The notes beneath the pieces were generated by a model that saw nothing but the letters and a program-made list of their open reading frames with translations, searched no databases and was not told the origin of the DNA. A DNA stretch of 64,000 bases from Methyloversatilis universalis (GTDB lineage: Bacteria > Pseudomonadota > Gammaproteobacteria > Methylococcales > Methylococcaceae): positions 1-64,000 of the forward strand of contig DYIL01000009.1 in the NCBI GenBank assembly GCA_020723665.1, written 5' to 3'. Both the position numbers and the translations under genes were made by a program. This document shows positions 48,170-63,437 of the stretch, in pieces; position 1 is the stretch's first letter; every line of letters begins with the position of its first letter.

Positions 48170-48379
48170 AGATCGCTCCTCTTGTAGTAATTGCTTGGAG
48201 TATACGGTTTAGGATTCAGTCGCCGCAATGATCGAGTCCGGGGCGCATGACCGGTCCAGCATAGCACAGTTCTCACGCGGCGGATGCCGCGGAATTCCAA
48301 GGTTTCACCGCGTCGGCGCATGACGATGTCGGTCGTTGCCGATTCAAGCGAGCTCGCATTTTCTTGCCCCCGTATTGAC

Positions 48380-48397
48380 ATGAGAATCGGTCTCATT
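48380..48397. promoter_or_regulatory. Fur-like operator before the first TonB receptor
   Basis: ATGAGAATCGGTCTCATT has a perfect TGAGA-N5-TCTCA palindrome at its core and matches 13 of 15 positions of the TGAGAATnATTCTCA form of the Fur box. It overlaps the -35 side of the promoter at 48396-48423, so iron-loaded Fur would block transcription. Confidence 0.7.
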
Positions 48398-48423
48398 CAC
48401 ATTCGCGTTAGCCGGGCTATAAA
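48396..48423 (+). promoter_or_regulatory. Promoter of the first TonB receptor
   Basis: TTCACA (48396-48401) and TATAAA (48418-48423) are separated by 16 bases. The start of transcription would be near 48430, about 55 bases before the receptor start codon. Confidence 0.5.
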
Positions 48424-48484
48424 ATCGACCATTGACCTGAGGCGAATTGCCGGGCAGATAAAAACACAATGGAGCCTTACATTC

Positions 48485-50701
48485 ATGCAACATGGTTCTA
48501 ACCGCGTTAACACCGTTATTCTTTTTGGACTCGCCGCCTTTGCGCTCCCGGCGTTTAGCGACGAATCCAACCCGGATGTCCGGAGCCAAACGAGAGCGGC
48601 CGGTGTACGCGCCGGCGAGCCGGATGGGGACTCGAACCGAGCTATCGCGGCTACGGAAGCCACCGAGCTCGAGGAAGTGAAAGTCACGGGCGATTGGCTG
48701 GGCGTGCCCACGGACGATTCGGTCAAAACCTATCCCGGCGCCCGCTCGGCGATTACCGAACGCGAGCTTCACCAGGGAGGTATGCGTAACGTAGAAGACG
48801 CCCTGAGGTTGATCCCGGGCGTGCGCGTACAGGATGAAAGCGGTACCGGCATTTTGCCGAATATCGGCGTGCGCGGGCTGGATCCTCGGCGCAGCCAGCG
48901 CACGCTGGTGCTGGTCGACGGCATACCCATCGCTCTGGCCCCTTACGGGCAAACCGGATTGTCGTTGTTTCCCCTGACCATGCAAACGGTGGAGAGCATC
49001 GACGTGGCTCGCGGCGGGGTGGCGGTCCGCTACGGGCCAAACAACGTCGGCGGCGTCATCAACTTCGTCAGCAAGCCTATCCCGGAAACGTTCAGCACGA
49101 CGCTAAAAGAAGCGCTGACGATCTCCAGCGAAACCGGCAATGTCCTTACCGACAGCTATTTACGGGTCGGCGGATTCGTCAACGACAGGCTAGGCCTGCA
49201 GTTCCAGGCAAACACCGTGCTCGGCGATTCGTTTCGGTCCCATTCCGATACCGAGGTCGAAAATCTGACTGCGGACGCCGAATGGTTCCTGACGGACGAT
49301 GCTTCCGTCAAAGCCCGCTTGCAATACTACAACACCGACACGGAGCTGCCCGGAGGCTTGTCGCCGCAGGCCTATCGTCAGGATCGCTTCCAATCCCAGC
49401 GCCCGTTCGACAAATTCCAGGGCCACACCGTGCGCGGGCACTTGATCTACAACCAAAACTTCGATCTTTTCGGCACGCCGGCCGAATTCAACTGGAGCAA
49501 TTTCGCCCATACCAGCGATCGCGAGTTTACCGTCGGCTGCCTTTTGAACAGTACCGCGACCACGTGCAATCTCGATCCGTCCAAGGTGTCCAACGGCGTG
49601 CAAACCAGTCCGCGCACGTTCACCGTATATGGCACCGAGCCGCGGTTGACGGTGGGTGCAACCACCGGCTGGCTGGATCACAAGTTCACCCTGGGCGGAC
49701 GTTACGTCAGCGAGGATGTCGAACAAGGGGTGGAGCGGCGCCGTCTGAGCACCGGCGAGGTCAAGCGAGCCCAGGATTTCCGATTCGGCACCGACGCCTT
49801 CGCGCTATACGCCAGCGACACGCTGAGCGTCTGGAGCGAGCGTCTGAGCGTCACGCCGGGGCTGCGCGTGGAGTGGATCGATCAGACCAGCCGCAACCAG
49901 CTTAACGGAACCTTTGTCCGCAACCGAGACGATGAACTTCTGCCGGGCCTCGATGTGGGTTTCCATCTCTGGCCGGACAAGGTCTACCTGTTCGGCAACC
50001 TGCACAAATCCTTGCAGCCGGTCCAGTTTACCCAGATTACCCTCGAGGGTGACACCGGCGCGGAAAAAGCCTGGAATTACGAAGCGGGCATGCGTTTAAC
50101 ACCGTTGCCGGAAATTTCCGCCGCCTTCAGCTTTTTCCAATTCGATTTCGAAAACCAGATCGTCGCCGTCGTTGAGAACGGCACCACGAAATTCCGCAAT
50201 CTCGGAAAATCCCGCCACCAGGGTTACGAAACGGAATTGGGCTGGACCCCATCCCTCGTTCCGGGGTTGGACCTCAAGGCGGGCTACACCTACGTAGACA
50301 CCGAGCAGCTCAACGATTTGTTCAGCGGAGCCACCCAGGTCGCCTTCAAAGGCAACCGAGTGCCCTACAGTTCCACGCATCAATTCACCCTGCAGGGTCA
50401 CTACCGGATCGATACCTTCAATTTCAATGTGAACGGCTTGTATCTCACTTCCGCGTTCACCGACGCCGCCAATACCGAACAGGAGGACGCGACGGGCAGC
50501 AAAGGCGAGATTCCGTCCTATTGGGTCTGGAACGCCCAGGTGACGAAGGACTTCCGCATCGACGGAACCAAGCTCCGGGCCGGCCTTGCGGCCAATAATC
50601 TGTTCAACGAGAACTACTACTTTCGCGGTGTGGACACCAGCCTCGGCCGGGTGCCGGGACCGGGGCGCTCCGTCATGCTCAGCCTGCAGCTCGATCTTTA
50701 A
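48485..50701 (+). CDS. TonB-dependent receptor, FecA-like
   Basis: A 738-residue outer-membrane receptor. Signal peptide 1-25 (ending PAFS), a TonB box near LEEVKVTG, a plug domain (about 75-195: NVEDALRLIPGVRVQD, IGVRGLDPRRSQRTLVLVDGIPI, GGVAVRYGPNNVGGVINFVSK) and a 22-strand barrel to the C-terminal LSLQLDL. The plug is closest in style to Fe(III)-dicitrate/catecholate-type receptors, but no N-terminal signalling domain is present, so it does not drive FecR-type signalling. A Fur-like box controls it. The carried iron chelate is unknown. Confidence 0.88.
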   Translation: MQHGSNRVNTVILFGLAAFALPAFSDESNPDVRSQTRAAGVRAGEPDGDSNRAIAATEATELEEVKVTGDWLGVPTDDSVKTYPGARSAITERELHQGGMRNVEDALRLIPGVRVQDESGTGILPNIGVRGLDPRRSQRTLVLVDGIPIALAPYGQTGLSLFPLTMQTVESIDVARGGVAVRYGPNNVGGVINFVSKPIPETFSTTLKEALTISSETGNVLTDSYLRVGGFVNDRLGLQFQANTVLGDSFRSHSDTEVENLTADAEWFLTDDASVKARLQYYNTDTELPGGLSPQAYRQDRFQSQRPFDKFQGHTVRGHLIYNQNFDLFGTPAEFNWSNFAHTSDREFTVGCLLNSTATTCNLDPSKVSNGVQTSPRTFTVYGTEPRLTVGATTGWLDHKFTLGGRYVSEDVEQGVERRRLSTGEVKRAQDFRFGTDAFALYASDTLSVWSERLSVTPGLRVEWIDQTSRNQLNGTFVRNRDDELLPGLDVGFHLWPDKVYLFGNLHKSLQPVQFTQITLEGDTGAEKAWNYEAGMRLTPLPEISAAFSFFQFDFENQIVAVVENGTTKFRNLGKSRHQGYETELGWTPSLVPGLDLKAGYTYVDTEQLNDLFSGATQVAFKGNRVPYSSTHQFTLQGHYRIDTFNFNVNGLYLTSAFTDAANTEQEDATGSKGEIPSYWVWNAQVTKDFRIDGTKLRAGLAANNLFNENYYFRGVDTSLGRVPGPGRSVMLSLQLDL

Positions 50702-50723
50702 CCTTAGGGAAAAAGGCAAATCT

Positions 50724-51405
50724 ATGTCTGAATTGATTCTGCTCGCCCATGTCCCGACGGACTCGGTGAACGAGGGCTTTTTGCCCGCGGCCCGCGCTTT
50801 GGGTCTGTCGGTCGTACTTTTAAGCGATCAAGCCGAAGCGCATCGGCAGCATTTCGGAGGACGCGAACTGGCGGCCTATCCGGATGCCGTGGTCCCCTGC
50901 GATGTTTTCAATCCCATTGCCGTGATCGAGGCGATTACCCGGCGCGGAAAGAAACCGGCGGCCATTTTTTCCAACAGCGATCACTTACGGACCAGTACCG
51001 CTTTGCCGCCGATTATTTCGGTTTGCGGGCAAAGACTGGCGGGTTGCCTATCGGGCCAAGAACAAGGCGGAGATGCGGAATGCCCTGAAAGCGAAAGGCA
51101 TCGATCCGCTTTGGCATGCCGTGGTGTGGGATGAGGAGAGCGTGACGCATCAGATCAAGGATGCCGAAATCACGGTGGTGGGACAGCTGTGCACGCCCAA
51201 GGATGTGCTGGCCACCGATGCGCCGGTGGCGCGGGTTCGCGTCGGCGACTGGCTGATCTTTCCTTATGCGGGCGCTTATGCCTGGCATATCTCCCATCAC
51301 GATTTCTTGCTGCACCCGCACCCGGAGCGGTTCTACCTGCCCGTGGAAGCCCCCTCCGCATGGTCTTATCGAACAAATAACAACGAGGATCGAACGACTT
51401 TATGA
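50724..51405 (+). pseudogene. Collapsed siderophore-biosynthesis remnant: ATP-grasp N-terminus fused to PLP-decarboxylase C-terminus
   Basis: The ATG at 50724 (after AGGGAAAAAGG) opens about 95 codons resembling the N-terminus of an ATP-grasp enzyme (ILLAHVPTDSVNEGFLPAA, IFSNSDHLRTSTAL). The frame then fails near 51008; adding one base there and one near 51032 restores AADYFGL and GKDWRVAYRAKNKAEMRNALK, the usual continuation. From about 51170 the sequence becomes the tail of a type III PLP decarboxylase (VVGQLCTPKDVL, VGDWLIFPYAGAYAWHISHHDF, HPHPERFYL). Most of both genes and anything between them is gone. The end overlaps the next receptor by 4 bases. The decarboxylase part is surer than the ATP-grasp part. 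Confidence 0.6.
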
Positions 51406-53480
51406 GAAGGCGTCATTTGATTTCGACGATGACGCTGGCGATGGCTTATGGCCCTGTCGAGGCCGCGGATATCGCGGAAAACCGGCCGGACCGCGAGGCT
51501 ATCGCCACCCGTTTGCCCGAGGTGACGGTATCCGCGGAGCCGCCGTCGACGGTGCCCCAGGTTTCGACGTCCGCCACCAAGACCGAGACGCCCTTGCGGG
51601 ACATCCCCCAATCGGTGCGAGTCATCACCCGAGAACTGATCGAAGAGAAAGGGGCGCTGCGCAGCAAGGACGTGCTGCAGCAGGCCAGCGGTGTATTCCT
51701 GCAGCAGGGGGAAGGGGCACGCGACGACTTCAATATTCGCGGCTTCACGGCTCTGCGGGATGTTTACAAAGACGGCGTACGCGACGATCTGGTGCAGCAA
51801 TTCCGCGATCTCGCCAACATCGAGCGCATCGAAGTGATCAAAGGCCCTTCATCGGCCCTGTTCGGCCGCGGATCGAGTGGCGGATTGATCAACTACGTGA
51901 CCAAAAAGCCGGTTGCTGAATCCCGCTACGCCGTGGAGCAGAAAATCGGCCGCTACGATCTGTTGCGCACCGAGCTCGATCTCGGCGGCCCCCTGGCCGG
52001 CGAGGAGTGGGTCTACCGGTTCGACGGTGCCTACGAGCAGACCAACAGCTTCCGCGATTTCGTGAGTTCCGAGCGCTTCTTCGCCGCCCCGAGCGTCGCC
52101 TGGCGGCCGAGCGAGGATATCGATCTCAGGTTGCAGCTCAGCTATTTGGAAGACGATCGCACCCCGGACCGAGGCATCCCCGGTATCGGCAGCCGGCCGG
52201 CCAAGGTGAAGCGCCGGACTTTTTACGGCGAGGCCTTCGATTTTCAGGACACCCAGGTGTACGACGCCGGGCTTTACGCCGAATGGCGCCTCAGCGAGCG
52301 ATGGACCTTCAGGAATGCCTTCCGGGCGGCTTACACCGACGTGACCCAGCTCGGTACCCGTAATCTCTCGGTCACGAATGGGCGCACCCTGAGGCGTGGT
52401 TTCGTCGAGTTTTCCATCCCGCAGGAGAATTATTTCAACCAGACCGACCTGATTTACAAAACGTCCTTGGGACCCACCGAACACACCCTGCTCTTGGGCA
52501 CCGAGTTCGGCTATCAGAAAAGGGATTTTCTCAACAAAATAGCCGCCGCGCCGTCCATCGACATATTCGACCCGGCGCACAGCGCCAGGGCACCGGTTTT
52601 CACCGCGAGACCGACCATCGATGCGAGCTTCAGCGCCTTTACCTTCGGCGGCTACGCCCAGGATCAGATCGCCTTCGGCGAGCATTGGAAAGCCCTCATC
52701 GGCCTGCGTTACGATCATTTCGATCAGGCCCAGGACGATCACAGGACCGGTACCCGCCTGTCGCGGGTGGACGACGAGCTGAGCCCGCGCGGCGGATTGG
52801 TGTTCCAGCCCGCCGAATGGGCGTCCTTCTACGGCCATATCAGCCAATCGTTCCAGCCGGCGGGGGACAGCCTGCTGTTCCCGGACAAGGTCAGAACCCT
52901 CGAGCCGGAATCCTCGACCCTGTACGAAGTCGGGGCCAAGGCGGATCTCGCCGAGCGGTTGTCCGCGACGCTCGCGCTATTCGAGATCGAAAAGGACAAC
53001 ATCGCCACCAACGAGCCGGGGAATACCGGCTTCAAGATCCAGGTCGGCGAGCAGCGGCACCGCGGTGTCGAACTGGACCTGACCGCGGAACTCCTGCCGC
53101 GGTGGAAGCTGTACGGCAGTTATGCCTTCATCGACGCCGAGATCACCAAGTCCCGCACTTTTGCCGTGGGCAACCGTCCCGCCAACGTCCCCGAGCACAG
53201 CGGAAGCCTTTGGTCCAGCTATGAATTCGGCAACGGCTTCGGCTTCGGCGGCGGTCTCGTGATGGTCGGGGATCGCTTTGCTTTCGACGACGACCAAGTG
53301 GTGCTGCCCGGTTATGTGCGCGCCGATGCGTCCGTGTTTTACCGGCAGAAGCACTTCGAGGTGGCGCTGAATCTGAACAATCTGCTCGACAAGGCGTATT
53401 TCGAATCGGCTTCCAGCAATACCCAGATCAGCCCAGGAGCGCCATTTACCGCCCTGGCGACCCTCAAAGCGCTGTTCTGA
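51402..53480 (+). CDS. TonB-dependent siderophore receptor
   Basis: A 692-residue outer-membrane receptor of the FhuA/FcuA-like siderophore group. A signal peptide of about 22 residues is followed by LPEVTVSAE (TonB box region), a plug (about 60-180: TPLRDIPQSVRVITRELIEEKG, NIRGF, VIKGPSSALFGRGSSGGLINYVTKKP) and a barrel ending LKALF. No N-terminal signalling domain. The substrate is likely a hydroxamate- or carboxylate-type ferric siderophore. Its start overlaps the remnant upstream (ATGA), so it was once the last gene of that operon and is probably still read from the promoter at 48.4 kb. Confidence 0.92.
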   Translation: MRRRHLISTMTLAMAYGPVEAADIAENRPDREAIATRLPEVTVSAEPPSTVPQVSTSATKTETPLRDIPQSVRVITRELIEEKGALRSKDVLQQASGVFLQQGEGARDDFNIRGFTALRDVYKDGVRDDLVQQFRDLANIERIEVIKGPSSALFGRGSSGGLINYVTKKPVAESRYAVEQKIGRYDLLRTELDLGGPLAGEEWVYRFDGAYEQTNSFRDFVSSERFFAAPSVAWRPSEDIDLRLQLSYLEDDRTPDRGIPGIGSRPAKVKRRTFYGEAFDFQDTQVYDAGLYAEWRLSERWTFRNAFRAAYTDVTQLGTRNLSVTNGRTLRRGFVEFSIPQENYFNQTDLIYKTSLGPTEHTLLLGTEFGYQKRDFLNKIAAAPSIDIFDPAHSARAPVFTARPTIDASFSAFTFGGYAQDQIAFGEHWKALIGLRYDHFDQAQDDHRTGTRLSRVDDELSPRGGLVFQPAEWASFYGHISQSFQPAGDSLLFPDKVRTLEPESSTLYEVGAKADLAERLSATLALFEIEKDNIATNEPGNTGFKIQVGEQRHRGVELDLTAELLPRWKLYGSYAFIDAEITKSRTFAVGNRPANVPEHSGSLWSSYEFGNGFGFGGGLVMVGDRFAFDDDQVVLPGYVRADASVFYRQKHFEVALNLNNLLDKAYFESASSNTQISPGAPFTALATLKALF

Positions 53481-53483
53481 CCG

Positions 53484-54488
53484 ATGGGCACCGGGAACGA
53501 CCGATGCTTGTCTCAATGGCATGTTTATCTGGGGCTGGCGTTCGCGCCGGTTTTGGCGGTCATCGCCGCAACCGGCATCCTGTTGGGTTTTTACGACGAG
53601 CTTCGCTATGCGGAGCCGCCGTACCGCCTGAACCAAGCGGTCGAGGCAAGTTTACCCACTGCCGTTCTGGCGCAGCGCATCCAGGCCGCTCATCCGGGTC
53701 ATCGGCTGGAGGTGCTCTATTTGCCCACGGCGCCGGAGCGCGCGGCCCGGGCCAAATTGGCGGGGCCGGACCGGCGCTTGGCCTTTATCCATCCTGAAAC
53801 GGGACAAACCCTGGCCGTACGCGATGCCGACGAGCAGGACTGGTTGGATTTCCTTTACGCCCTGCATCGCGGTAAACCGTTGGGACTCACGGGGCAAATC
53901 ATCGCCAGCATCGCCGGGATTTCTATTCCCATTCTTTGGAGCATCGGTTTCCTGCTCCGTCGGCGGCGCTCGACTTATCGTACCGCAAGGCAGAATTCGT
54001 TCACGATCCGCGGTTTGCACCGGGAGGCGGGCTTGATTCTAGGCGGGCTCCTCGCTGTGCTGACCGTCATGGGAAGCCTCCTCAACTTTGCCGGACCCTT
54101 GAAGCAATGGCTGGACCCGCCGCCCCGGCTTGCCGGCAGCCGTCCGGCGCTGACGCCGAAAGATCTTGCCCATCACCTGTCCAGCGCCGCGCTCACCTAT
54201 CCCATGGCACCTCTGGAGCGGATTTATTTTCCGGCGGACGAACGTTCTCCTTTGCAGCTCCGGTTTCGCGACGGCGGCTGGGCTTATCTCGACGCCGACG
54301 GTCGGGTGCTCAAGATCGTCACGCCTCTTTCCCACTGGACCAATCTCTTGTATCCGCTCCATAGCGGCCGCCTATGGGGAACTCACGGTCCCAGAGTCAC
54401 GGCCTTGTTCGGCCTCATACTGTTCGCCTTGAGCGGCAGCGGACTCTATCTCTATTGCCGACGGCGCGGAGCCGTTCGGAAGCGGTAG
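53484..54488 (+). CDS. PepSY-associated membrane protein of iron uptake
   Basis: A 334-residue inner-membrane protein with four membrane segments (about 12-34, 140-158, 178-200, 303-325) and periplasmic PepSY-like parts. Conserved histidines at or near helices (QWHVYLGL, LHRGK, LHREAG, LHSGRLWG) recall PiuB/FhuF-linked membrane reductases that are thought to release iron from siderophores. It starts 3 bases after the receptor stop and almost surely shares its mRNA. The reductase role is inferred from the family. Confidence 0.82.
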   Translation: MGTGNDRCLSQWHVYLGLAFAPVLAVIAATGILLGFYDELRYAEPPYRLNQAVEASLPTAVLAQRIQAAHPGHRLEVLYLPTAPERAARAKLAGPDRRLAFIHPETGQTLAVRDADEQDWLDFLYALHRGKPLGLTGQIIASIAGISIPILWSIGFLLRRRRSTYRTARQNSFTIRGLHREAGLILGGLLAVLTVMGSLLNFAGPLKQWLDPPPRLAGSRPALTPKDLAHHLSSAALTYPMAPLERIYFPADERSPLQLRFRDGGWAYLDADGRVLKIVTPLSHWTNLLYPLHSGRLWGTHGPRVTALFGLILFALSGSGLYLYCRRRGAVRKR

Positions 54489-59055: not shown

Positions 59056-61416
59056 TCATTCGCCGGGCGGCGTTTCGCTCGGTGCAAGTTGGTTTGGCGG
59101 TGTTTGTGGCTTTCGAACCACGGAAAAGTACGACGTGGCGACAGCCTTGCTGCTACGGGTGCGCACTCGATGTTCGACAGTGTAGGTGCCGGACTTCATA
59201 TAGGAGGGGATGGTAAATTCATTCGAAGCCGTGTTGCTGCCGGCCGTCGCCAGCTTGAAATCGGAGCCTTCTTTGCCGATTCGCCTGCCTCCCGCCTTCA
59301 GCACCCAGCTCAATTCGACGTCCGCATGGCGGACACCGGCGGGAAGCGTCAAATCATAAGTGGTGACGAGTTCCACCGTTTCACCCGCGCTGACCTGGCG
59401 CGGAGTCGCCGTGGCGCTCCGAATCGTGACGACCGCTTGATCCGCCGGCGAGATGGTCCGCTCCGTCGTTCCGATATTTACGGCCAGAGTTTCATCCTTT
59501 GCCGCTTGTTTCGATTCGCTGGCTTTGGCCTTACGCAAAATCAGTTGCTGCCGGAGGGTTTGTACTTCGGCATCCCCCAGTATCGCGGCGGCCTGATCGA
59601 TATAGCTCTGCGCCTTGTCCCATTCCTCGCGGTTGAGAGCCCGCCATGCGCGCCCGATGATGCGGTCCACTGTTGGCTTGCGCCGGGCCTCTTCCTTGGT
59701 GGCGGGCGTATCAGCATCGCCCTGACCCTCGGATGTTTTTACCCCATTAAGCAATTGGGCGGCTTGCTTTACATCGGAGGGCTGTGCCGCAGGCTGCTCA
59801 ACGGGCTTTTGGCGGGTCTGAGCTTCGAAACCCTCCTTTTCGGCTTCGGCCTTGCGGGTGTTGAGTTCCTCGTGCAAGGATTCGGCCTCAGGCAGAACGA
59901 TCGTGACTTCGTCGATGCGCGTCCGTGCCAGGTCCCAATCTCGGCGTGCCATGGCTTCGCGGGCCGGTTGGGCGAATCGGTCGACGATCTCCTTAATGCC
60001 TTGCTTGGCTTGAGGTTGATCGGGATTCAGCGCGAGCACCGAGCGAAACTTGGCAAGCGCGTTGTCGTCCTTGGGGCTGATGAGGCGGCCCGCCCGGATG
60101 TCCTCGGCGGCCCTAGCCAATAGCTTGAACAACGCATCGATCTCGGCCCCCTCATATTGAGCGGGATCCGGCTTGGCGTCGGCATCCGTCCCACCGGTCG
60201 ATTCTTCGGGTGGCGAAGCCAGAGTGGTCGACGCGATATCCCGAGGCTCGGCGGTAGCGGACTGATCGCTGTCGACCTGTTCGTCCTCGCGCCCCATCCG
60301 TTCGCTATCCGACGACGCCGTCGGTCGCTCAGGCTTCTCGATCAGCCCACGGTTCAGCCAAATAAGCCCGCCGACGACGAGTGACGCCGTTAAGGAGACG
60401 GCCAAAATGCGCGAGAGAGGGGCGTCGGAGATCGGCCGGCGCGCTGGCGCATCGGCCGGTTCAACGACCACGGATTCGACTGTGGGTTCAGGCTTCTTCG
60501 GCGGCTCTTCGACCGGTTCCAGCGACGACGAAAATTCACGCCGCCATGACGCGATGCTCTGCGGCCGTTTCGGGGGATTCAAGCTCAGTGCGTGGTCGAT
60601 GGCGCGAAGCAAACTTTCGCTGTATCGAGGTCCGCCGGCTTGCCCGGCGGGGACGAGAATATCTTTCGATGCCAGAATGAAGGTCTGGCTCCGTTCGGGC
60701 GCACCGGGCGGCGCGACGCCGGCAATGCAGCGGTAGATCGTCGCACCCAGTCCGTAGATATCGGTCCAGGGCCCGATCTGATCGGTTTTCCCATAATACT
60801 GTTCTACCGCCGCGTAACCAGGCGTAAATAGGGAAGAAAGGGTCTGCGTTTTTTCGCCCAGGGACTGACGAGCGAATCCGAAGTCGAGGAGCACGGGGCT
60901 TCCGTCCTTGCGAAGCACGATACTGGCTGGGGTAATGTTGCAATGAAAAAAGCCGGCGTCATGTACTTTCTCCAGCCCACTCAGGATTGGGATCGAAAAC
61001 TTGAGAAGCTCGCCTTGTTCCAGGGTTCCACGGTGCTCGAGGACGGTATGCAGGCTTTCGCCGTCTTCGTAGGCCATGACCATGTAAGCGGTGTTGTTTG
61101 CAACGAAAACGTTGAGCACCCGCACGATATTGGGATGCTCCACTTTCGCCAGCCTGCGCGCCTCGTCGATGAAAAGCTCCAAGCCCGCGAGATACTGTTC
61201 TCCATGATCATCCGTGGCCGGCCGGATCAAAGCGGTTCCGTCTCGAACGGCTAGTTTTGCCGGGAGGTATTCTTTGATGGCGACGTGGCGGTCAAGAATA
61301 GAGTCAAGGGCGAGGTAGGTGATCCCGAAGTCACCCTGACCTAGAACTTTTTCAATGGAAAACCACTGCAGGCGGTAACCTGGATTGAGCACATTGTGGT
61401 GCATGTTCTGTGACAT
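59056..61416 (-). CDS. Serine/threonine protein kinase homologue, probable pseudokinase, with TM helix and C-terminal Ig-like domain
   Basis: A 786-residue protein. The N-terminal kinase domain (about 18-300) keeps the glycine loop GQGDFG (26-31), Lys48 (VAIK) and DFG (178-180), but the catalytic loop reads HCNITPAS (158-165): the usual HRD Asp is Asn160 and the metal-binding Asn is Ser165, so phosphotransfer should be lost or weak. One membrane helix lies at about 337-354. Outside are an acidic linker, helical repeats (about 420-640, two WDLARTRID/WDKAQSYID units) and a C-terminal Ig-like beta domain (about 660-765). It may bind ATP and signal by binding partners. Confidence 0.85.
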   Translation of the reverse strand: MSQNMHHNVLNPGYRLQWFSIEKVLGQGDFGITYLALDSILDRHVAIKEYLPAKLAVRDGTALIRPATDDHGEQYLAGLELFIDEARRLAKVEHPNIVRVLNVFVANNTAYMVMAYEDGESLHTVLEHRGTLEQGELLKFSIPILSGLEKVHDAGFFHCNITPASIVLRKDGSPVLLDFGFARQSLGEKTQTLSSLFTPGYAAVEQYYGKTDQIGPWTDIYGLGATIYRCIAGVAPPGAPERSQTFILASKDILVPAGQAGGPRYSESLLRAIDHALSLNPPKRPQSIASWRREFSSSLEPVEEPPKKPEPTVESVVVEPADAPARRPISDAPLSRILAVSLTASLVVGGLIWLNRGLIEKPERPTASSDSERMGREDEQVDSDQSATAEPRDIASTTLASPPEESTGGTDADAKPDPAQYEGAEIDALFKLLARAAEDIRAGRLISPKDDNALAKFRSVLALNPDQPQAKQGIKEIVDRFAQPAREAMARRDWDLARTRIDEVTIVLPEAESLHEELNTRKAEAEKEGFEAQTRQKPVEQPAAQPSDVKQAAQLLNGVKTSEGQGDADTPATKEEARRKPTVDRIIGRAWRALNREEWDKAQSYIDQAAAILGDAEVQTLRQQLILRKAKASESKQAAKDETLAVNIGTTERTISPADQAVVTIRSATATPRQVSAGETVELVTTYDLTLPAGVRHADVELSWVLKAGGRRIGKEGSDFKLATAGSNTASNEFTIPSYMKSGTYTVEHRVRTRSSKAVATSYFSVVRKPQTPPNQLAPSETPPGE

Positions 61417-61836
61417 AAAAACAGGGACGAGAGCGGGGCAAAACGGGGCCTCGCGAAGCGAGACATTGGACGACGGCAGGTAAGCAAATCGGGTAGCCCC
61501 GGAAATCGTCGGATTTTACATTGTGCCGATTGAAACCGGATAAGGCAACCGAAACCGTGGAAAATGTCAAGCGGGGGCGGAGTGCCGCCCGCTTGTTGTA
61601 TCCCGCGCGTAACTGGAACCCCGTGCGCAGGATGTACGAGCCACCACGGGCCCCCTGTTTTGCTTTTTGCGGTTTTCCGGGAGCGGATAGGGCATTTCCC
61701 ACATCGCTTCAGCCTTTTGCCGCAGCGGCATCGTGACAGATTGCCAGCGGAGCCGCGGATTTCTAGCTTTCACGCGGCCGGCATGGGGATTGCTCCAAGA
61801 CTCTATCGTTATTGAAGTGATGTGTGGTTTGTCCCC
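61417..61836. other. Intergenic region between kinase homologue and fecI
   Basis: A 420-base divergent gap with no gene. It holds a GC-rich inverted repeat, CAAGCGG...CCGCTTG with a 2-base bulge (61568-61595). A TTGACA on the minus strand (61570-61565) could be a -35 box for the kinase homologue, but no convincing -10 box follows. Confidence 0.5.
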
Positions 61837-62349
61837 GTGACCGAAACCTTACCCGAAACTTCCATACAGGATTGGTTTTCCCGCTACGCAGACGACCTGC
61901 TCGGTTTCCTGCGCCGCAAAGTGGGCGATTTCGACGCGCCTGACCTGGTCCAGGACGTCTTTCTCCGTATGCTCTCGTACCCGTCGGCGTCCATCCGCGA
62001 GCCGCGCGCTTTTCTTTTCCGTGCCGCGGCCAATTTGGTCGTCGATCACCTGCGCAAGGAAAGCCATCGCGATCACGAAGACATCGCCGACGTTTCGGAA
62101 GAACTGGCCGCGCCCGCTCCCACCCCGGAGGCTACCGCGATCGGCGCGGAACGCATGGAGCGCTTTCGGGCCGCGCTTGCCGAACTCCCGCCCGTGTGTC
62201 GTCATGCCTTCGTGCTCAACCGGTTCGACGGTATGACCCATTCCGAAATCGCCGAACTTTTCGGGATTTCCCCGAAGACCGTGCAACGTCATATCGAGAA
62301 GGCGCTGGACCACTGCTTGCATCGCCTGGAAAATAACGCATCGGAGTGA
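61837..62349 (+). CDS. FecI-type ECF sigma factor
   Basis: A 170-residue extracytoplasmic-function sigma factor. Region 2 (about 10-80: LLGFLRRKVGDFDAPDLVQDVFLRML, EPRAFLFRAAANLVVDHLR) and region 4 (about 110-165: ELPPVCRHAFVLNRFDGMTHSEIAELFGIS, HTH) are typical of FecI. Such factors are released by a FecR protein when a TonB receptor binds its ligand. The GTG at 61837 is the likely start; an in-frame GTG lies 15 bases upstream; neither has a clear ribosome site. fecR follows after 125 bases. Confidence 0.9.
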   Translation: MTETLPETSIQDWFSRYADDLLGFLRRKVGDFDAPDLVQDVFLRMLSYPSASIREPRAFLFRAAANLVVDHLRKESHRDHEDIADVSEELAAPAPTPEATAIGAERMERFRAALAELPPVCRHAFVLNRFDGMTHSEIAELFGISPKTVQRHIEKALDHCLHRLENNASE

Positions 62350-62404
62350 GCGCGAGACGATTTTGCGATCGTCGCCGGTGGCCCACGAGCCCGCCATCAT
62401 ACGT

Positions 62405-62431
62405 CTTATCATAAGAAAGATCATAAGAAAG
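62405..62431. repeat. Palindrome and tandem 12-bp repeat before fecR
   Basis: CTTATCATAAG (62405-62415) is a perfect palindrome. It overlaps two abutting exact copies of ATCATAAGAAAG (62408-62419, 62420-62431). AT-rich in a GC-rich neighbourhood and 44 bases before the fecR start, it looks like an operator or promoter element; TTATCAT blocks resemble Fur half-sites. Confidence 0.5.
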
Positions 62432-62474
62432 CCCGCATTGACAGAAGCGGCCTGAAACAATACCAACCGCGGCC

Positions 62475-63437
62475 ATGGCCAATCCCGTTTCCTCTTCTAG
62501 CGAAATCCGTGAGCGTGCGCTTTACTGGCTGGTGCGTGTACACTCTGGCGAGATGAGCGCCGCCGAGCGAGCCGCTTTCGAGCGTTGGCTGGCGGCCAGC
62601 CCCACCCACCGGCAGGCTTGCGAAGCGGTTCGCGCGACTTGGGACGACCTGCCGCGTCCGGAAGCGGAATTGGCCGCCGCGCGCGGTTACGCTCGCCGCC
62701 GTGGTTCTTTCCGCCGGGTCTTTGGCCCGGCGCTTGCCGCAGCACTCGTTCTAACGATGGGACTCGCGGCATACGAGGGTTGGCCTTTGTCCGACACCGG
62801 CGTTTACCGCACGGCCAAAGGCGAACGCCGGACGGTGGTCTTGCCGGACGGCACGCAGGTCGAACTCAACAGCGACACCGTGCTGGCCATGCGCTACGGT
62901 TGGTCCTCGCGTTCGGTCGAACTCGAACGCGGCGAGGCGTTTTTCAGCGTCGCGCCGCGGAAATTTAGGCCGTTTGAAGTACGGGCTTCGGGCGGATCCA
63001 TCCGCGATATCGGCACCCGTTTCGATGTGGACCGGCGTCCCGCGTCGGTACGGGTGGCGGTGCTGGAAGGCGCGGTGCGGATCAGGCTCGCCGACGCCGG
63101 GGACGAGCGGCAGGTAAACCAGGGGCAAATGGCCAGCTACGGTGCGACGGGCGTACTCACCGAAGCCGCGCCGGCCGACCTCTCGGCGGCGACCGCCTGG
63201 CGCGAGGGCAAGCTGATCGTCCGCGCGACGCCGTTGCCGGAGATTCTGGCGGAACTCGGACGTTACCATCCGGTTGTCTTCCGCCTCGCGGATCCGGCGC
63301 TGGAGCGATTGTCTTTGAGCGGGGTTTTCAAAGTCGACGATCTGCCGCTGTTTCTCGCCACACTGGAGGCGGTTCTTCCGGTCAAGATCGGCCGAGCCGA
63401 AGACGGCAGCATCGCGGTGGAACGGACGAAACGGTAG
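62475..63437 (+). CDS. FecR-family anti-sigma factor
   Basis: A 320-residue membrane protein. The cytoplasmic N-terminal domain (about 10-60: ALYWLVRVHSGEMSAAERAAFERWL) binds the sigma factor, one membrane helix lies at about 82-100, and the periplasmic FecR domain (about 108-205: YRTAKGERRTVVLPDGTQVELNSDTVL) plus a secretin/TonB-like C-terminal part follow. It should hold the FecI-type sigma factor upstream until a receptor signals. The receptor gene normally next in line is missing; an Rpn-family gene on the other strand follows. Confidence 0.91.
   Translation: MANPVSSSSEIRERALYWLVRVHSGEMSAAERAAFERWLAASPTHRQACEAVRATWDDLPRPEAELAAARGYARRRGSFRRVFGPALAAALVLTMGLAAYEGWPLSDTGVYRTAKGERRTVVLPDGTQVELNSDTVLAMRYGWSSRSVELERGEAFFSVAPRKFRPFEVRASGGSIRDIGTRFDVDRRPASVRVAVLEGAVRIRLADAGDERQVNQGQMASYGATGVLTEAAPADLSAATAWREGKLIVRATPLPEILAELGRYHPVVFRLADPALERLSLSGVFKVDDLPLFLATLEAVLPVKIGRAEDGSIAVERTKR

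Follow-up and report, generated by a model that had tools for sequence, protein, structure and literature searches.

Whether a bacterial receptor might signal through a kinase module that has lost its catalytic aspartate is the question raised by a single gene within a 64,000-nucleotide stretch of DNA (the whole of which is referred to here as the window). A preliminary description of that gene, made from the sequence alone, presented its product as a transmembrane pseudokinase with external helical repeats and an Ig-like domain, and as a candidate receptor of a type unusual in bacteria. The analysis described here partly supports that interpretation, and adds to it that the Ig-like domain also exists elsewhere on its own, in lipoproteins whose genes neighbour those of Hanks kinases.

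Architecture and catalytic residues

The gene and its parts, with the evidence for each, are as follows.

59056..61416, reverse strand: whole gene, PpkA-like (pseudo)kinase, membrane helix, helical repeats and Ig-like domain; 786 amino acids, ATG start (open reading frame, Pfam, orthologues)
60532..61383, reverse strand: PpkA-like kinase domain, residues 12-295 (Pfam; PDB 5hnv, E 1.1e-53; tree)
61273..61275, reverse strand: ATP lysine K48 (VAIK), present in 5/5 (window protein and four orthologues; alignment)
60922..60945, reverse strand: catalytic loop H158-C-N160-I-T162-P-A-S165, with Asp to Asn, Lys to Thr and Asn to Ser (alignment, codons)
60877..60885, reverse strand: DFG, residues 178-180, present in 5/5 (window protein and four orthologues; alignment)
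60352..60408, reverse strand: membrane helix, residues 337-355 (hydropathy, mean 1.93 over 19 residues)
59815..60165, reverse strand: helical block 1, residues 418-534, TPR-like in appearance (AF2; locus L042 matched with a query from the middle part)
59494..59703, reverse strand: helical block 2, residues 572-641 (AF2)
59113..59445, reverse strand: residues 658-768, an Ig-like beta-sandwich that shares homology with the C-terminal part of kinase-linked lipoproteins (searches, AF2, structure matches)

The anatomy originally proposed (a kinase, one membrane helix, helical repeats and an Ig-like sandwich) is borne out by Pfam, hydropathy and AF2 models, the orientation in the membrane being a prediction. 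Pfam Pkinase (PF00069) spans residues 20-286 at 103.7 bits (cut-off 31.7; E 1.5e-29), placing the region within the Hanks-type fold, and the nearest solved relative of the domain is PpkA (5hnv), which is also its sole PDB match at or below 1e-30; judged by its sequence, the domain belongs to the PpkA-like subfamily. The single hydrophobic helix that follows the kinase is consistent with a single-pass topology. The kinase half of the protein (residues 1-422) is unfolded, with pLDDT below 50, in a full-length AF2 model built from a two-row alignment, and its fold is for that reason assigned from sequence by way of 5hnv. Beyond the membrane, where a repeat region and a beta-sandwich had been anticipated, the same model contains two helical blocks (10-residue pLDDT means of 47-78 within residues 421-530 for the first; pLDDT of 70-83 in the core and 41-52 at the ends of the second) and a seven-stranded sandwich at residues 662-766. 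An identity of the helical blocks as TPR repeats was considered and dropped: although helices are predicted, the TPR_19 profile reaches 10.6 bits against a Pfam cut-off of 25.

Predicted on its own, the sandwich gives five models with mean pLDDT of 88, 87, 70, 65 and 44, and it matches solved Ig/FnIII-like sandwiches (Foldseek; VIA-align Z 10.8-13.9 among the 50 matches listed). In these models the likeness is to an Ig-like fold of a generic kind only, and matches to glycosidase side domains and others were set aside as no guide to function. A search of PDB sequences with the domain gave nothing significant (best E 0.16), and no Pfam or NCBIfam model exceeds its cut-off, the sole trace being MG2 (14.8 versus 32.8 bits, E 0.039). 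A search of plasmids with the protein matched 281 records, none with 80% query coverage; the 10 matches listed cover at most residues 1-299 at 39-45% identity, and two of them adjoin a T6SS gene.

Within the kinase domain, the window protein and its four orthologues all share residues G26/G28/G31, K48, E85 (the alphaC Glu), D178-F179-G180, P199, E205 (the APE-type Glu), D219 and R284. The retention of the ATP lysine and DFG, the replacement of the HRD aspartate by asparagine (position 160, codon AAC) and that of the loop asparagine by serine (position 165, codon AGT), all noted in the preliminary description, were confirmed by alignment with those orthologues and by the codons. Set against the loop of solved PpkA (HRDISLDN), that of the window protein (HCNITPAS) has lost both Asp and Asn. 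In both proteins the loop lysine is replaced by a hydroxyl residue (Thr at position 162 of the window protein, Ser in PpkA), and its loss was dropped as a sign of inactivity because the solved PpkA lacks it as well. With Asn at position 160, the protein fits the sequence definition of a pseudokinase given in the excerpted text of PMC12599244, under which at least one of the beta3 Lys, the HRD Asp and the DFG Asp is missing. Among 70 distinct kinases, gathered by likeness to the window kinase or nearness to the Ig-like domain (and so no census) and cleared of near-duplicates and short pieces, the loop of 65 contains Asp, Lys and Asn; the remaining five are precisely the fused-receptor orthologues.

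The excerpts of PMC12599244 already catalogue bacterial pseudokinase families, some with a membrane helix after the kinase, so that proteins of this kind were known and the phrase 'unusual in bacteria' was too strong. Five such families (ActPs2, ActPs3, GLW, CP1 and DLHK) share with the window protein a Hanks fold that has lost catalytic residues; a membrane helix often follows the kinase in ActPs2, ActPs3 and GLW, and ActPs2 also replaces Asp by Asn. They differ from the window protein in other respects: in ActPs2 the beta3 Lys is replaced by Arg and DFG is mostly absent, GLW has neither the HRD motif nor the Lys, and no membrane helix is present in CP1 or DLHK. By their descriptions in that source (those of ActPs1 and DYD being left aside), K48, DFG, the HRD His and the membrane helix set the window protein apart from ActPs2, GLW and CP1; unlike these families, it keeps Lys and DFG and has sisters that look catalytic. 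The same excerpts describe EssB/YukC, which works as a scaffold and recruiter, and the pseudokinase domain of MviN as bacterial and membrane-linked, like the window protein, but degraded in all three motifs.

Loss of the aspartate within Methylocaldum

Methylocaldum is a methane-eating bacterium, and full-length orthologues of the receptor are present in all four Methylocaldum genomes examined (that of the window, G000, and G001, G002 and G003), as well as in G006, from another genus of the same family. Methylocaldum sp. 14B, the one relative obtained by the contig search, corresponds to G001 (100% identity in the ORFs compared) and was counted once. Identity to the window protein is 82% for G002, 70% for 14B/G001, 64% for G003 and 42% for G006, and the catalytic loops read HCNITPAS in the window, HGNISPAS in G002, HCDITPAN in G001, HCDVTPAN in G003 and HGDLTPTH in the outgroup, G006. 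The loss of aspartate is thus shared by one orthologue (HGN in G002) and not by the others (HCD in G001 and G003, HGD in G006). The codons AAC and AGT at positions 160 and 165 are common to the window and G002, and each lies one base from the corresponding codon of G001; these are two of the 19 kinase-domain positions that unite the window with G002 and set both apart from G001 and G003. An assembly error is ruled out, in that a separate genome, G002, carries the same two codons.

A maximum-likelihood tree of 41 of the 70 kinase domains, with the loop masked, pairs the window protein with G002 (99/90) and requires one change from Asp to Asn and one loss of the loop Lys. Of its rows, 37 were included because a KEY-type motif follows their ATP Lys and four were chosen as outgroups; L113 is a stray from another subfamily, and the program warned of long branches for L113, L002 and L129. 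The five orthologues form a multifurcation (86/94) within which that pair alone is set apart. The objection that this copy might be a sporadic mutation, foreseen in the preliminary description, is correct to the extent that some orthologues keep Asp; yet the loss is a single derived change, common to two species, and is for those reasons neither sporadic nor an assembly error. Since two other Methylocaldum species keep both Asp and Asn, it appears from these alignments to be a recent switch inside a catalytic-looking family. What seems new is a lineage-restricted loss of Asp in a PpkA-like receptor whose sisters in the same genus look catalytic. One genus therein provides the same full-length receptor with and without the catalytic Asp, a natural matched pair with which one may ask how a signalling kinase becomes a pseudokinase, and what stays.

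That the kinase domain has lost catalysis and is now slowly decaying, or serves as a spacer, with the periplasmic part as the selected function, is a quite improbable alternative, on which rates of substitution bear directly. By the Nei-Gojobori method, the window and G002 have a kinase-domain dN/dS of 0.167 (284 codons), and the Asp-keeping G001 and G003 one of 0.078 (for the C-lobe, 0.144 versus 0.066), a comparison that is rough because the divergence of the two pairs differs (dS of 0.34 and 0.76). These higher values in the pair without Asp would agree with decay, but they are much smaller than 1 and similar to the value for the same pair's Ig domain (0.146; 0.237 between G001 and G003), and no variation is seen at the nucleotide-site residues, R284 or the APE-type Glu. 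Measured against G001, the kinase domain gives 0.137 for the window and 0.145 for G002; the rapA control gives 0.092 between the window and G002, and 0.068 and 0.080 against G001. For the window and G002, the three linkers have values of 0.33-0.71, and the value of 2.9 for the 21-codon membrane helix is unreliable because synonymous changes are few there. The kinase domain is under purifying selection after the loss of Asp, perhaps about twofold looser than in the Asp-keeping pair.

A second alternative, which we consider unlikely, is that of an atypical but active kinase, which would carry out slow phosphotransfer without the HRD Asp and still signal by phosphorylation. As excerpted, PMC4718504 names KSR2, HER3, JAK2 JH2 and CASK as having reported activity, and states that HER3, in which the same Asp is Asn, binds ATP with a Kd of about 1 uM, activates its partners allosterically, and autophosphorylates on vesicles with a weak activity of uncertain relevance. 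Retention of K48, E85, DFG and the APE-type Glu would suit an active enzyme, and the PpkA family can do without the loop Lys (5hnv, HRDISLDN); against it, Asp160 and Asn165 have gone together in two species, and HER3 keeps the loop Asn. HER3/ErbB3 resembles the window protein as a receptor with an intracellular pseudokinase in which HRD D is N and the ATP lysine and DFG are kept, but in HER3 the alphaC Glu is gone and the loop Asn present, the opposite of the situation in the window protein, and the comparison is an analogy only.

The reading to which we incline, with modest confidence, is that of an envelope receptor signalling through an ATP-binding, non-phosphorylating kinase module. The protein would be a single-pass inner-membrane receptor, the C-terminal half of which, presumably periplasmic, would sense the state of the envelope or a protein there; ligand binding would change dimerisation, and the ATP-loaded cytoplasmic domain might, by analogy to HER3, signal through its conformation, whether by switching on an intact kinase in trans (in the manner of HER3) or by docking a phospho-reader. 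The sister receptors with HCD..N are predicted probably still to phosphorylate, and the window lineage would have dropped catalysis and kept a binding function. Several points weigh against this reading: (i) the window kinase could be active, because HER3 autophosphorylates on vesicles despite its D to N change; (ii) the binding of nucleotide or Mg could be impaired, because the loop Asn that HER3 uses for Mg2+ is Ser here; (iii) the constraint on the kinase domain looks looser than in the Asp-keeping pair, with the reservation on divergence given above; and (iv) no partner is genetically linked, the adjoining genes being rapA or others.

Gene surroundings and type VI secretion

The gene stands alone, in that rapA adjoins it in three of the four Methylocaldum genomes (the window, G002 and G001) and other genes do so in G003 and G006. 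On its other side in the window is a FecI/FecR-like pair, an ECF sigma factor and a FecR-like protein by NCBIfam (61822-63437). Farther away, at 48284-54488, are TonB-dependent receptors and a PepSY-type protein, by the look of the sequence; the window contains no tRNA.

PpkA, as described in excerpts of PMC6082577, has an N-terminal kinase followed by a periplasmic part, as the window protein is predicted to have, and is driven through its periplasmic domain, to which RtkS binds in Serratia and TagR probably in Pseudomonas. The two differ in that PpkA retains both the HRD Asp and the loop Asn and acts together with T6SS genes, whereas the window gene has no T6SS linkage and its product carries helical and Ig-like parts. 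The gene is not a T6SS ppkA by position, T6SS genes being located on other contigs. That its product is nonetheless the missing membrane input of a T6SS threonine-phosphorylation pathway is a very improbable explanation, with some circumstantial points in its favour. The kinase domain is PpkA-like, and the T6SS loci of all four Methylocaldum genomes carry Fha (reader) and TagF-PppA (eraser) (L143 in G000:C95, L151, L153 and L155). No Hanks kinase was matched by a kinase profile in the T6SS stretches covered (about 55 kb each in G002 and G003, 20 kb in G001, and about 53 kb on two contigs in G000), so that a writer, if any, is probably encoded elsewhere and the window protein becomes a candidate input; because the T6SS of G000 is split over contigs, a kinase there could hide in the gap. 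Against this explanation, the gene has no linkage to T6SS, G006 has the receptor orthologue but no TssC was found in it, and an intact, soluble PpkA-like kinase, C13 (HLDIKPQN), is present in the same four genomes and matches PpkA about as well, which makes it an equally good candidate for T6SS input.

One copy of the HLDIKPQN kinase (L135:6660-7664) has no predicted membrane helix, and its relatives occur in many of the Methylococcales genomes searched (21 tree rows). Near Fha in G000 is a protein with caspase and Sel1 matches.

The Ig-like domain and its kinase cassette

Relatives of the Ig-like domain form the C-terminal parts of small proteins, mostly of 202-232 amino acids, most of which start with a lipobox-like sequence as judged by a simple pattern; the window domain and those of eight cassette lipoproteins compared with it are 30-36% identical. 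The domain is present in 29 of 251 genomes drawn from the order, 7 of 369 from the class and 2 of 398 from the phylum (one of these two, G924, being weak at E 7e-5), with the genome of the window included in each. Among the places matched in the order search, the kinase-fused ones are the five orthologues. With the weak matches left out of the reading of loci (G009:C420 and G003:C1 from the order search, and G924), 35 stand-alone loci were available, 29 from the order search and six from the class search. A Hanks kinase is encoded upstream on the same strand in 29 of the 35, the closest one never being more than 1.72 kb away; in the remaining six the contig ends 0-1.6 kb upstream. The 29 kinase-bearing loci are not independent, because several come from one genus (five from g22). 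At L133 the Ig frame, as delimited by the ORF rule, extends across the kinase gene, and L131 and L132 are fragments that may be fused or free.

Within these 29 loci an M48 peptidase was found in 25, an FHA-ABC fusion in 17, a vWA protein in 16, a PP2C phosphatase in 11 and all four in 10. Partners were counted with single-sequence profiles from one locus and named by Pfam on L057 and L105, for which reason the FHA-ABC count may include other ABC transporters. In L105:5563-13192, and in L052, L053, L106, L108-L111, L113 and L115, an FHA-ABC fusion, a membrane kinase, a vWA protein, an Ig-like lipoprotein, an M48 peptidase and a PP2C phosphatase lie on the same strand. The cassette lipoprotein shares the Ig-like domain of the window protein; the cassette, unlike that protein, consists of separate subunits, and its intact kinase belongs to a different subfamily (mostly HRDLKPxN, with N-terminal CxxC pairs seen by eye). 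TagS and TagT together make up an ABC transporter, and TagQ is a lipoprotein; in appearance the cassette is a counterpart, without T6SS, of the PpkA/PppA/Fha/TagQRST pathway. Among the titles and abstract openings listed from an open-access library there was no earlier description of the window protein or of the cassette, and no name was found for the latter.

Two further fusions of kinase, membrane helix, helical part and Ig-like domain, with intact loops, occur in G423, from another family of the class (the family search around it covered two genomes):

L128:5277-8117: 947 amino acids, loop HRDVKPSN
L129:4895-7228: 778 amino acids, loop HGDVKPAN, order of parts as in the window protein

L129 groups with the orthologues (97/84), but has a long branch and an odd composition. 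Because these fusions keep intact loops, their sequences suggest that the fused receptor was once catalytic.

Gene order and fusion together support the Ig-like domain as an input domain of kinases. This kinase-linked domain, for which no Pfam or NCBIfam model scores over its cut-off, is new, and its ties to Hanks kinases, which in these loci are little-studied proteobacterial ones, provide a handle on their envelope sensing. A wider proposal, possible but doubtful, is that of a split receptor, in which the protein of the window and G002 would be a dead, ATP-switched sensor activating an intact partner in trans (for example, the HLDIKPQN kinase), and in which the Ig-like domain would define a new family of kinase-linked periplasmic sensors, acting in cis when fused or in trans as a cassette lipoprotein.

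A glycine zipper occurs in some of the Ig-domain lipoproteins; it is absent from L057 and L105, and exceeds the Pfam cut-off in L049, the locus of the window's own genome, where the set consists of kinase, lipoprotein and M48.
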